Assembly (NCBI RefSeq): GCF_019249795.2
Contig: NZ_CP156891.1
Coordinates: forward strand, 1,092,001 to 1,156,000
Source: Segatella copri
Lineage (GTDB): Bacteria; Bacteroidota; Bacteroidia; Bacteroidales; Bacteroidaceae
Length of the DNA stretch: 64,000 nucleotides
Direction of reading: 5' to 3'
Part shown: piece after piece, positions 25,595 through 35,673 of the stretch
Position numbering within the stretch: the first letter of the stretch is position 1
Layout of the letters: the number at the start of each line of letters is the position of its first letter
The notes under the pieces: generated by a model
The model's input: only the letters and a program-made list of their open reading frames with translations
What the model was told of the DNA's origin: nothing
The model's database searches: none
Translations under genes and position numbers: made by a program

Positions 25595-25991
25595 GGGGTT
25601 GACTGGATTTGACGGCGAGATGAAATGGTACGTAAGCATGCGGAGGCTCGTTGGCTACCTCCTAAATCCTAGTGAACAAAAAATTAATTGGCGAAAATAA
25701 CTACGCTCTCGCTGCCTAGTCGAAGTATAGTAAACTAGCTTTATTCCAGCACAGGGTGCTGGAACGAGACATCGCTCAACGGATGTTGTTCCGAATCTTG
25801 TTGATCAAGCGGTGCAGGTAAATCGGAAATAGTTCATGTACGCCTCGTTGCATGGATGAAATTTTAGAGGATAAGGGTATGATTGGTGGTCCAGGTCCTG
25901 TCATGCCTCGAAAACCGAAGGCTGGAATAAGCATGTAGAAAGCGTATGGTTTCCTTGTGCGGACGAGGGTTCGAATCCCTCCAGCTCCACC
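25595..25991 (+). ncRNA. ssrA: Transfer-messenger RNA
   Basis: The 5' end GGGGTTGACTGGATTTGACG and the 3' end GGTTCGAATCCCTCCAGCTC are the conserved ends of tmRNA. GGGGTTG pairs with CAGCTCC to form the acceptor stem. The tag reading frame at 25690-25719 reads GENNYALAA then TAG, preceded by the resume site; an alanine from the charged tmRNA comes first. This is the standard Bacteroidetes tag. The RNA rescues stalled ribosomes and marks the unfinished protein for proteolysis. No CCA is encoded. Confidence 0.97.
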
Positions 25992-26006
25992 CTATTTGAT
26001 AGAAAC

Positions 26007-29598: not shown

Positions 29599-30597
29599 AT
29601 GGATATAAAGAAGATAGCAAACAACATATGGAAGGTGGCTTTGTCGCTTATTCTGGGTGGCGCCATCCTTTATTGGATGTATCGCGGATTCGACTTCAAG
29701 CAAGTAGAAGATGTTCTGCTTCACAAGATGAGTTGGACCTGGATGCTGCTGTCGTTCCCTTTTGGCATCTCTGCCCAGGTGTTCAGAGGATGGAGATGGA
29801 AACAGTCGCTGGAACCATTAGGCGAGAAGGCCCGCTCCAGTATCAGCATCTACTCCATCTTCCTGTCCTATGCTCTGAGTCTTGTAATTCCTCGTGCGGG
29901 CGAGTTTGCCAGATGCGGCGTATTGAAGAAATGGGATGATGTTTCGTTTCCGAAAGCCTTGGGTACCGTCGTTACAGAAAGAGCCATCGATTCACTCCTC
30001 GTGCTGCTGATTACGGCGCTGGTCTTTGTGATGCAGATTCCGGTATTCCTCAATTTCTTTGAGAAAACAGGTACGAGCATGGACAGTTTACTCAGCCAGT
30101 TTACAGCCACAGGTTACATAGTGACAGCTATCTGTGGCATAGCAGTACTCATCCTGGCTCACTATCTGCTCAAGCGACTCGCTATATATAATAAGGTGAA
30201 AGCAACACTGGGAGGACTCTGGCAAGGTATCATCTCGCTGAAAGGTGTCAGAAATGTACCGCTCTACATCGCCCTTACACTGGGCATCTGGTTGAGCTAT
30301 TTCTTCCACTACTATCTCACCTTCCAATGCTTTGAGGCAACCTCCCATCTTAATCTGATGTGCGGTCTGGTGACATTCATCGTGGGCAGCATAGCGGTCA
30401 TCGTACCAACTCCTAACGGAGCCGGACCTTGGCATTTTGCCGTCAAGACAATGCTCATACTCTATGGCATTCAGGCAAACGATGCCCTCTTCTTCGTTCT
30501 CATCGTACACTCCGTGCAAACCCTGCTTGTAGTCCTTTTGGGAATCTATGCCTGGATAGCACTGGCGTTTACCGGGAAAGTGAAGAGTGAAGAGTGA
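29599..30597 (+). CDS. Flippase-like membrane protein (LPG synthase transmembrane family)
   Basis: From the ATG at 29599 the protein has 332 residues. It has about eight membrane segments and the family marks YALSLVIPRAGEFARCGVLKKW ... TVVTERAID (near 95-135) and PTPNGAGPWHFAVK (near 275). These match the integral membrane domain related to the N-terminal half of MprF (UPF0104/AglD). No synthetase domain is attached. Members probably move lipid-linked molecules across the inner membrane, but the substrate here is unknown. A tandem GAAGAGTGAAGAGTGAGGAG-type repeat overlaps its 3' end. Confidence 0.85.
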   Translation: MDIKKIANNIWKVALSLILGGAILYWMYRGFDFKQVEDVLLHKMSWTWMLLSFPFGISAQVFRGWRWKQSLEPLGEKARSSISIYSIFLSYALSLVIPRAGEFARCGVLKKWDDVSFPKALGTVVTERAIDSLLVLLITALVFVMQIPVFLNFFEKTGTSMDSLLSQFTATGYIVTAICGIAVLILAHYLLKRLAIYNKVKATLGGLWQGIISLKGVRNVPLYIALTLGIWLSYFFHYYLTFQCFEATSHLNLMCGLVTFIVGSIAVIVPTPNGAGPWHFAVKTMLILYGIQANDALFFVLIVHSVQTLLVVLLGIYAWIALAFTGKVKSEE

Positions 30598-30672
30598 GGA
30601 GTGAAGAATCCTCTTGCTTTAGGGCGTATGCCCAACTTAACATTGAACATTTAACATTAAAATAAAAATATT

Positions 30673-32176: not shown

Positions 32177-32206
32177 AGCCGAGAGTGAAAATTCTCGGCT
32201 TTTTTG
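32177..32206 (+). terminator. Terminator of pepD
   Basis: AGCCGAGA (32177-32184) pairs with TCTCGGCT (32193-32200), followed directly by TTTTTT. Confidence 0.9.
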
Positions 32207-32229: not shown

Positions 32230-32456
32230 TACCTTTGCAGTCGATTTCGCAAGTCTTGTAAAATCTCTGTAGCAGATCATACAAATTCACTTGCATAAGT
32301 TTCATTAAAATAACACCAAAATGGACGATTATCACGCGGAGAACAATAATGAATTGTAAGGCGTGGAGATTCAGCAACGACGAAGCCTTTCAGTAGGCCG
32401 TACCCAAGCGCTAGTCTCCATACCCCAAACTTTTATTATGTGGAGATTAGCAAACT
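32230..32456 (+). promoter_or_regulatory. Structured corA leader with acidic mini-ORF and switchable RBS
   Basis: The promoter box TACCTTTG is at 32230-32237. The first hairpin is nested (GCAAGT 32249-32254 with ACTTGC 32289-32294; TTGTA with TACAA; ATCT with AGAT). A 12-codon frame at 32321-32359 reads MDDYHAENNNEL. Four bases after its stop is GTGGAGATT (32363-32371). The identical nine bases recur at 32440-32448 and contain the corA ribosome binding site GGAGA. The only complementary segment, AGTCTCCAT (32413-32421), lies between them and can pair with either copy; with the second the helix reaches about 12 pairs. Inside the first helix is a smaller stem, GCCT/AGGC (32385-32398). This is a mutually exclusive ON/OFF design. 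It does not match the M-box sequence. Confidence 0.7.
32321..32359 (+). CDS. Leader peptide of corA (12 codons)
   Basis: ATG to TAA, peptide MDDYHAENNNEL, preceded by the A-rich CACCAAA typical of Bacteroidetes start sites. The acidic start and the stop position, four bases before the first GTGGAGATT copy, suggest that ribosome progress decides the folding downstream. Translation is not proven. Confidence 0.5.
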   Translation: MDDYHAENNNEL

Positions 32457-33383
32457 ATGAAGACTTATTGGAATATAGACAAGAATCTGACTGTACTCAA
32501 TGAGTGGCAGCCAAACTGCTGGATACAAGTAACATGTCCAACTGATGAGGACCAGCGCTTGCTGGAAGAAGAATTCAAGATCCCTGATTATTTCCTCTCG
32601 GATATCAGCGATACTGATGAGCGTGCCCGCTATGAATATGACGATGGCTGGATGCTCATCATCCTCCGTATCCCTTATGTCAAGGAAATACGCAGCCGTA
32701 CCCCATACACCACCGTGCCTTTGGGTATCATCCATAAGCGCGATGTTACCATCACCGTATGCTATTATGAAACCAACATGATGATTGATTTCGTAAGCTA
32801 CCAACAGAAGCGCAGCGAGGGGTTCACCGACTATGTAGACATGACCTTCCGTCTCTTCCTTTCATCAGCGGTTTGGTATCTGAAGCGATTGAAACAGATC
32901 AATTCGCTCATAGAAAAGGCAAAACGAAACCTCGATCATGGTGTGAACAATGAGAGCCTGATTGGCCTGAGCCGCCTGCAGGACTCCCTTACCTACTTCA
33001 TCACCTCTATCCGAGGCAACGAGAATCTCCTGTCTAAGTTGAAGTTCAAGCTGCAGGTGGACGAACTTGATGCCGACCTCATCGAAGACGTAAACATCGA
33101 GATGACACAGGCACGCGAAACTACAAGCATCTACTCCGACATTCTGGAGTCGACGATGGATACCTATTCGAGCATCATCAACAACAACATGAATACCACG
33201 ATGCGTACCCTGACCAGTATCAGTATCGTCATGATGTTGCCTACGCTGATTTCCTCATTGTTCGGTATGAACTTAATCAACGGTATGGAAGACAGCCATT
33301 ACGGATTTGCCATTGCCCTGGTTATCTCCGTGCTCGTTTCTGCACTTTCATGGGGCTTCCTTAGATACAAGCGCCTGCTCTAA
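32457..33383 (+). CDS. corA: CorA-family divalent cation (Mg2+) transporter
   Basis: Encodes 308 residues. The cytoplasmic N-terminal funnel is acidic. A long stalk helix follows (LIEKAKRNLDHGVNNESLIGLSRL ... ETTSIYSDILESTMDTYSSI). Two C-terminal membrane segments carry the selectivity motif Gly-Met-Asn (SSLFGMNLINGMED, about residue 270). The pentameric channel imports Mg2+ (or Co2+/Ni2+). The RBS GGAGA lies ten bases before the ATG and inside the switchable leader element. It is a single gene followed by a terminator. Confidence 0.95.
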   Translation: MKTYWNIDKNLTVLNEWQPNCWIQVTCPTDEDQRLLEEEFKIPDYFLSDISDTDERARYEYDDGWMLIILRIPYVKEIRSRTPYTTVPLGIIHKRDVTITVCYYETNMMIDFVSYQQKRSEGFTDYVDMTFRLFLSSAVWYLKRLKQINSLIEKAKRNLDHGVNNESLIGLSRLQDSLTYFITSIRGNENLLSKLKFKLQVDELDADLIEDVNIEMTQARETTSIYSDILESTMDTYSSIINNNMNTTMRTLTSISIVMMLPTLISSLFGMNLINGMEDSHYGFAIALVISVLVSALSWGFLRYKRLL

Positions 33384-35506: not shown

Positions 35507-35577
35507 TTGGGATACCCGGACTCGAACCAGGAATGACAGGACCAGAATCTGTAGTGTTACCATTACACCATATCCCA
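35507..35577 (-). tRNA. tRNA-Gln (CTG)
   Basis: A 71-base cloverleaf on the minus strand with acceptor arms TGGGATA/TATCCCA, a D-arm with TGGTGTAATGGTAACAC, anticodon loop TTCTGGT (CTG) and T-arm GGTTCGAGTC. No CCA is encoded. It is one of two identical tandem copies. Confidence 0.93.
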
Positions 35578-35602
35578 AACTTAAAATAGAACTTTTTGAT
35601 TG

Positions 35603-35673
35603 TTGGGATACCCGGACTCGAACCAGGAATGACAGGACCAGAATCTGTAGTGTTACCATTACACCATATCCCA
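35603..35673 (-). tRNA. tRNA-Gln (CTG), second identical copy
   Basis: Identical over all 71 bases to the copy at 35507-35577 and separated from it by 25 AT-rich bases. The two form one transcription unit on the minus strand. Confidence 0.93.

Follow-up and report, generated by a model that had tools for sequence, protein, structure and literature searches.

What turns corA on in Segatella copri, where a short acidic reading frame and a repeated Shine-Dalgarno (SD)-like motif precede the gene? The locus lies in a stretch of 64,000 nt of S. copri DNA (NZ_CP156891.1, positions 1,092,001 to 1,156,000), hereafter the window. A sequence-only reading of it had proposed a Mg2+-sensing leader in which translation of the acidic mini-ORF decides between two pairings over the corA ribosome binding site (RBS). 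The underlying observation is real. The interpretation, an acidic leader with an SD-mimic and one anti-SD that has two possible pairings, is partly supported by comparison with relatives, which also points to elements beyond the original proposal, namely a possible further helix (1:2), a promoter element, a tie to corA, and a spread over 20 families and a genus of another order. We put at roughly 0.6 the probability that this leader is a translational attenuator driven by its peptide, with low Mg2+ as the most likely signal.

Layout of the corA leader

The corA gene (32457..33383, forward strand, like all the elements of the leader) starts at an ATG at 32457 by direct reading and encodes a CorA-like divalent cation transporter of 308 aa (Pfam CorA, 160.9 bits). 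By-eye reading finds a GC-rich hairpin with a T-run (32178..32206) past the peptidase gene and ahead of the leader, a candidate that is probably the terminator of the upstream gene, and notices no intrinsic terminator between mini-ORF and corA in the window. The Bacteroidetes promoter consensus consists of a -7 TAnnTTTG and a -33 TTG; the window has the former as TACCTTTG (32230..32237) and a possible -33 TTG at 32204-32206. The putative leader-peptide mini-ORF MDDYHAENNNEL (32321..32359), recognized by sequence and conservation, has 12 codons from its ATG at 32321 to a TAA at 32357-32359. Around it, the RNA resembles a four-segment attenuator with pairings 1:2, 2:3 and 3:4. Segment 1 is CACGC in codons 5-6 (32333..32337), a possible pairing partner of GCGTG in segment 2. 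Segment 2, GCGTGGAGATT (32361..32371), is an SD-mimic directly 3' of the stop codon that can pair with segment 1 or 3. Segment 3 is the anti-SD GCTAGTCTCCATA (32410..32422), a partner of segment 2 (via 32413-32421) or of segment 4, which is the SD region of corA (TGTGGAGATTAGC, 32439..32451) and would form the OFF helix with segment 3.

Direct reading bears out the positions first given for the two copies of GTGGAGATT (32363-32371 and 32440-32448), for AGTCTCCAT (32413-32421) and for the mini-ORF. The mini-ORF stop does adjoin the first GTGGAGATT copy, although the gap is three bases and not the four first counted. AGTCTCCAT can pair with either copy as proposed, in 9-bp pairings with two G-U pairs each, but the pairing with the RBS copy extends further, and RNAfold of 32358-32470 gives a 13-bp helix over the SD (32410-32422 with 32439-32451). 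A 9-mer repeated within 230 nt is weak evidence alone (about 0.1 expected by a rough estimate); it is significant because it is conserved in relatives.

The promoter element recurs at this place well beyond the window. TAnnTTTG lies within 130 nt before the mini-ORF in 136/137 genus, 39/41 family and 30/33 order/class leaders, with 19, 2 and 3 occurrences in the antisense control; in these counts, as in those of partner position and folding below, the genus set also includes leaders of the named contigs listed by a pattern scan. Its median distance to the mini-ORF is 38, 36 and 33 nt in the three sets, the window being unusual with 91 nt, and it occurs between mini-ORF and corA in 0, 3 and 2 leaders. 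Since the element stands just before the mini-ORF, the latter is probably the first feature on the corA transcript, starting some 20-30 nt from the inferred transcript start in most leaders. About 50 extra bases, partly paired in prediction, separate promoter element and mini-ORF in the window (32240-32300) and also in its nearest relative (G001), whose CorA is identical to the window's.

The Rfam Mg2+ riboswitches, M-box and Mg_sensor, are RNA elements in the leaders of Mg2+ transporter genes. A known Rfam riboswitch was rejected for this leader: at gathering scores the window yields a tmRNA and two tRNAs only and 20 related loci yield nothing, while sub-threshold matches have E values of 0.5-10 (for example S15-Flavobacteria, whose 21.9 bits fall far short of its gathering score, 46.5). 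The tmRNA gene lies at 25595-25992 (forward strand) and the two tRNA genes, with equal scores and 96 bases apart, at 35507-35673 (reverse strand). Elsewhere in the window, a tandem repeat of AGTGAAG (4.1 copies, 30579-30607) spans the end of an LPG_synthase_TM-family gene.

Conservation of the mini-ORF and its tie to corA

Of 60 relatives searched, 50 gave a CorA match, and all 30 of the same-genus loci examined from this search have an MDDY mini-ORF upstream of corA. Behind it, most of the sequences listed have the SD-mimic, the anti-SD (often GCTAATC) and the SD region (often GATTAGC), whose letters vary in concert between loci. Relatives keep the mini-ORF and both alternative pairings, and the architecture thereby passes the refuting condition set with the original reading. 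Among 98 corA upstream regions, mostly family-wide and including the window, 87 have an ATGGAYGAY mini-ORF within 260 nt before corA and 11 have none. The search pattern imposed Asp2-Asp3 on this set; residue 4 is Tyr in 78/87 leaders, and residue 5 is His (43), Pro (24), Tyr (12), Asn (6) or Leu (2).

An order-wide search (CorA in 51/247 genomes at E ≤ 1e-30; 29 loci examined, four already in the family-wide set) gave an M-D-[DE] mini-ORF in 26/29 loci, from 20 families by kinship labels, the three others (L275, L276 and L277) being without one. In a phylum-wide search (CorA in 42/247 genomes at E ≤ 1e-20; 28 further loci examined) 11 loci had the mini-ORF and 17 did not, and the 11 positives are all the examined loci of a single genus (g207) from another order of the same class. 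One locus (L278) is doubtful, with a mini-ORF 253 nt upstream and two helices that do not overlap. Peptides beyond the genus include MDDYHPER, MDDYHSRYY, MDDSNPRTYSSIH, MDDGPYHSKEK, MDEGPNHRQSK and MDDYYSEMLN. The search pattern fixed residue 2 as Asp and residue 3 as Asp or Glu; Asp accordingly stands at residue 2 in every leader counted, residue 3 is Glu in 3 of the 37 order/phylum leaders, and Pro occurs at residues 4-7 in 34/87 leaders of the first set and 19/37 of the second. Acidic and/or proline residues are thereby found within the first few codons, the mark of MgtL-type leaders prone to intrinsic ribosome destabilization (IRD). The Asp2 codon is GAC in 87/87 and 34/37 leaders, and codon 3 is mostly GAT (65/87 and 28/37).

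An MD[DE] mini-ORF lies at -300..0 of corA in 92 of the 115 loci with a complete stretch, against 0-1 of 68-115 loci in each of eight other 300-nt bins around the gene and 2/154 in antisense. Among short ORFs upstream of corA taken without selection, the dipeptide after Met is Asp-Asp in 120/154 loci, a count in which four places were entered twice, and the next commonest dipeptide is found in 5. A pattern scan of named genomes matched at least 118 contigs, which were chosen by pattern and carry no information on frequency; corA follows directly in 114 of the 118 listed, and in the other four the stored sequence stops soon after an MKT(F/Y)WN start, as in corA. The 80 titled contigs among the matches listed belong to Prevotella, Segatella, Marseilla, Prevotellaceae, Bacteroidaceae or Bacteroidales, with species such as Prevotella disiens, P. 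veroralis, P. aurantiaca, P. histicola, P. corporis and P. dentasini, Segatella baroniae, S. paludivivens and Marseilla massiliensis.

Across 201 family genomes, all 68 matches to ATGGAYGAYTAY(CACGCG or CCGGCG) lie within 350 nt upstream of corA. Pattern matches of every kind number 91 in these genomes, 75 of them within that distance and 16 elsewhere, one of the latter (in G073) being the start of a 130-codon open frame. A leader of the CAC/CCG-GCG type shared with other genes was looked for and not found, none of the 16 non-corA matches being of that type. The order-wide pattern ATGGACGAYTAYCM matched 51/247 genomes, a count that is uninformative because many genomes were also matched by the reversed-pattern control; six of its loci precede corA (L225, L228, L239, L240, L247 and, by position, G001). 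We regard the conservation of the mini-ORF, its place and its tie to corA as established at the level of sequence.

Competing helices and predicted ribosome states

Covariation was examined in an alignment of 36 of 44 genus leaders (two near-identical, four with long inserts and two divergent leaders omitted) against 500 shuffles per helix, which ignore relatedness. For the SD helix 3:4, 85.6% of cells are paired versus 77.2% in shuffles, 10/12 pairs show both-side changes, and 0/500 shuffles are as high on any of the five measures; slid versions of it reach 27-44%. Helix 2:3 has 75.3% paired versus 70.9% (1/500 shuffles as high), both-side changes in 7/9 pairs (26/500), a covariation score matched by 6/500 shuffles and further pair types matched by 225/500. 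Helix 1:2, which would join codons 5-6 to the segment past the stop, has 78.1% paired versus 68.1% (0/500) and a covariation score reached by 0/500 shuffles, with further types at 47/500, but its both-side-change pairs are not above shuffles (358/500 as high). A change from His-Ala to Pro-Ala is matched by one from GCGTG to GCCGG in some leaders, in few events that are confounded by descent. Covariation thus appears strong for helix 3:4, moderate for 2:3, and weak and confined to the genus for 1:2. Compensatory changes had been anticipated in both alternative helices, and they are strong in the RBS helix and only moderate in the other.

Tests that need no alignment extend this picture. In 75/87 leaders, no more than 0.5% of shuffles match the joint strength of duplexes 2:3 and 3:4, and the same holds for 29/37 order/phylum leaders. 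When the whole mini-ORF was included in the search, the best upstream partner of the anti-SD was centred at a median of 10, 8 and 4 nt past the stop codon (genus, family and order/class), and within 0..+20 of it in 124/140, 25/41 and 21/36 leaders, versus 66%, 29% and 29% for a shuffled anti-SD (114 of the listed 118 contigs used, identical leaders entered once, L093 excluded as too short). The competing helices, the covariation of the SD helix and the upstream promoter element are likewise shown at the level of sequence. That the best-covarying helix sits on the SD region itself also counts against transcription attenuation, in which the folds would govern access of Rho, the mechanism of enterobacterial corA and of mgtA in Salmonella. 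In its favor, the most similar corA leader on record, CorL, is described as acting through Rho (PMC11552253); all in all we hold it to be very improbable here.

Our preferred reading, the translational attenuator, predicts that the cost of opening the SD depends on where a ribosome stands. We placed a ribosome at codon 5 (early) or at the stop codon, folded the RNA beyond it and computed this cost. In the 75 genus leaders that lack an extra hairpin described below, the stop state costs 6.6 kcal/mol more than the early state (difference >1 in 73); the difference is +4.0 kcal/mol in 41 family leaders (29 above 1, 4 below -1) and +4.1 in 35 order/class leaders (31 above 1, 1 below -1). Leaders with shuffled middles give -0.06, -0.04 and -0.20 kcal/mol, and the real difference exceeds the shuffled one in 73/75, 31/41 and 34/35 leaders. 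Moving the footprint by 3 nt shifts the stop cost by no more than about 1 kcal/mol in leaders without the extra hairpin. The 75 genus leaders cost 5.4 (free), 3.2 (early) and 9.8 kcal/mol (stop), the free RNA falling between the two ribosome states; helix 1:2 would have this effect if it held leaders partly closed in the absence of translation. Beyond the genus, free and early RNA cost about the same (5.3 vs 4.9 in the family, 4.7 vs 4.5 kcal/mol in order/class), and segment 1 may therefore be peculiar to the genus. The early state there opens no more easily than shuffled sequence does (4.9 vs 4.2 in the family, 4.5 vs 3.4 kcal/mol in order/class), which suggests an RNA made to close firmly in the OFF state; these folds do not predict an ON state that is truly open.

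Pairing probabilities draw a weaker picture than opening costs. In 82 leaders (5 of the 87 left out for want of an SD match) the SD is unpaired with a probability of 0.225 when the ribosome is at the stop and 0.384 when it is at codon 5, against 0.414 and 0.404 in shuffled sequence; in free RNA the probability is 0.294. The SD opens by more than 0.2 in 27/82. Over the region -18..+3 the opening exceeds 0.1 in 51/140, 7/41 and 6/35 leaders and is below -0.1 in 10, 1 and 3. In the window, opening costs 10.2 (free), 5.8 (early) and 12.3 kcal/mol (stop), and the RBS is predicted to be paired in every modelled ribosome state.

An SD that is mostly paired in any predicted ribosome state, as it is for the window and for many leaders from beyond the genus, would also suit a plain RBS-sequestering hairpin that holds corA at a constant low level, the mini-ORF serving as a conserved landing pad for initiation or as a coupler without sensing. 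Such a hairpin would leave three things unexplained: the persistence of the Asp-Asp start in leaders whose remaining sequence turns over, the position of the anti-SD partner directly past the stop codon even in distant families, and the above-chance strength of both of two mutually exclusive helices. We think it unlikely.

One subclade departs from the attenuator model. In 65 of the 140 genus leaders, all with Pro5 (among them L015, L017 and L024), an extra hairpin with arms of GCAAG and CTTGC/TTTGC type carries the anti-SD GCTAATC in its loop. With the standard footprint the stop minus early difference averages -1.7 kcal/mol in these leaders (below -1 in 48/65), and real exceeds shuffled in only 10/65. 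The stop cost is 2.9, 3.2 and 5.1 kcal/mol for footprints of 10, 13 and 16 nt against an early cost of 4.9, so that a 3-nt longer footprint brings the difference to about zero (5.1 vs 4.9). Nested folding therefore appears to give the opposite sign or none in this subclade, against the attenuator model. The hairpin loop could possibly pair with GATTAGC of the corA SD as a pseudoknot, a structure beyond nested folding.

These results bear on the direction of control. The sequence-only reading had completion of the mini-ORF as OFF and early ribosome loss as ON, and the opening costs of leaders without the extra hairpin favor this order, while the Pro5 subclade does not. In the window the opening cost falls from the stop to the early state, although the RBS is predicted paired, and its helix costly to open, in all states. 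The reverse, completion as ON, was rejected: the anatomy gives OFF, save in the Pro5 hairpin subclade. We infer that the mini-ORF is translated and that its completion turns corA off, because segment 3 then closes the SD. In the attenuator that we propose, a ribosome at the stop codon would cover segment 2, leaving the anti-SD to fold onto the SD. A ribosome that stays on the acidic Met-Asp-Asp/Glu start, where Pro frequently follows by codon 4-7, or that keeps falling off there would leave segment 2 free to trap the anti-SD and so free the SD of corA. Ribosome-free RNA in the genus would be intermediate, since segment 1 can take segment 2.

The candidate signal and known leaders

The window CorA matches TIGR00383 with 88.5 bits, below the equivalog cut-off of 200.75, so its metal is not settled by this model. 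It matches CorA chains in the PDB (best E 1.3e-12), and by-eye reading finds FGMN in it, which we take to contain the GMN motif. No MgtE-family match was found in any of the four genus genomes tested (G001, G011, G017 and G025), and each of them has a single CorA-family gene; CorA as the main Mg2+ importer fits this gene content in those four genomes. Acidic and proline starts are reported to destabilize or pause ribosomes, an effect that high Mg2+ counteracts (PMC11282234, PMC9718836, PMC11552253). We infer that Mg2+ is the signal and that CorA imports it, because the acidic (and often proline) start is conserved, Mg2+ suppresses such destabilization, and MgtL offers a precedent at a Mg2+ transporter. 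Low intracellular Mg2+ would then destabilize ribosomes on the acidic/proline nascent N-terminus by IRD, and the transporter would be made. That the mini-ORFs keep only two acidic residues speaks against IRD, whose typical sequences are described as longer D/E runs (PMC9718836); two early acidic residues were nevertheless reported to suffice for EttA dependence in E. coli genes (PMC11282234).

The same anatomy could serve a signal other than Mg2+: the general state of ribosomes or translation factors, with EttA- or EF-P-like factors and the supply of tRNA-Asp as candidates, or else a different cation that this CorA would carry, such as Co2+, Ni2+ or Zn2+. Pausing at early acidic residues is reported to depend on EttA in E. 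coli (PMC11282234), this CorA falls below the Mg2+/Co2+ equivalog cut-off, and Asp2 is kept in all leaders counted. However, residue 3 can be Glu (3/37 order/phylum leaders), so that conservation seems to act on charge and not on Asp-tRNA, and the four genus genomes tested have only the one CorA-family gene and lack MgtE. We judge a different signal a real but distinctly lesser prospect. An attenuator responding to aspartate starvation was set aside as less likely, because three leaders have Glu in place of Asp3 and no more than two Asp codons are conserved.

With Mg2+ as the presumed signal, the evolutionary claim would be that Bacteroidia, independently of enterobacteria, evolved a leader-peptide sensor of Mg2+ that uses the ribosome itself to sense, with a Met-Asp-Asp/Glu start at which ribosomes falter when Mg2+ is low and competing folds that convert this into opening of the corA RBS. 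Such a sensor would have persisted, through turnover of the RNA letters, in 20 sampled families of the order and in one genus from a second order, and one Prevotella subclade would have rebuilt its OFF state around an extra hairpin, possibly with a pseudoknot. We see the odds for and against this full account as even. If it is true, ribosome destabilization by acidic starts is a sensor found twice, acting here on an RBS, and not an enterobacterial curiosity, and Bacteroidia, a major group of gut bacteria, have a cation-responsive translational switch. The natural peptide series MDDYHAE, MDDYPAE, MDDSNPR, MDDGPYH, MDEGPNH and MDDYYSE is suited to testing the sequence rules of ribosome destabilization.

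A search of literature on Bacteroides/Prevotella, leader peptides, uORFs and IRD/MgtL, by titles and the starts of abstracts and with subscription journals mostly outside its reach, found no paper on an acidic corA leader element. A transcriptome study of B. thetaiotaomicron describes leader-peptide-like sORFs in long 5' UTRs generally, and its main text does not mention corA (PMC7366714).

Three known types of leader invite comparison. The proposed design is built like translational attenuators of the ermC type, in which segments pair as 1:2, 2:3 and 3:4, the position of a ribosome on the leader peptide chooses between them, and the target SD lies in the last helix. The corA leader may likewise have four segments, with its target SD in 3:4; it differs in having an acidic start and no drug where ermC has an antibiotic-dependent arrest peptide. 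Like MgtL of mgtA in Salmonella and E. coli, it would place a short acidic/proline leader peptide before a Mg2+ transporter gene, and MgtL is described as combining alternative RNA folds with completed translation as OFF and early ribosome loss as ON (PMC11282234), the order that we propose for corA. It differs from MgtL in the phylum of its host, in its transporter (CorA, not MgtA) and in its peptide. The corA folds end on the SD, whereas in the PMC11282234 model those of mgtA act on a Rho-dependent terminator; for mgtA of E. coli, PMC11552253 reports that no such terminator was detected. Finally, CorL of Salmonella and E. coli is also a short ORF in a corA leader, and its translation varies inversely with expression of corA; that leader has two folds and responds to Mg2+ (PMC11552253). 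Unlike the design proposed for the window, CorL acts via Rho, has fewer acidic/proline residues than MgtL and, in the account given by PMC11552253, is described without an SD-mimic/anti-SD design.
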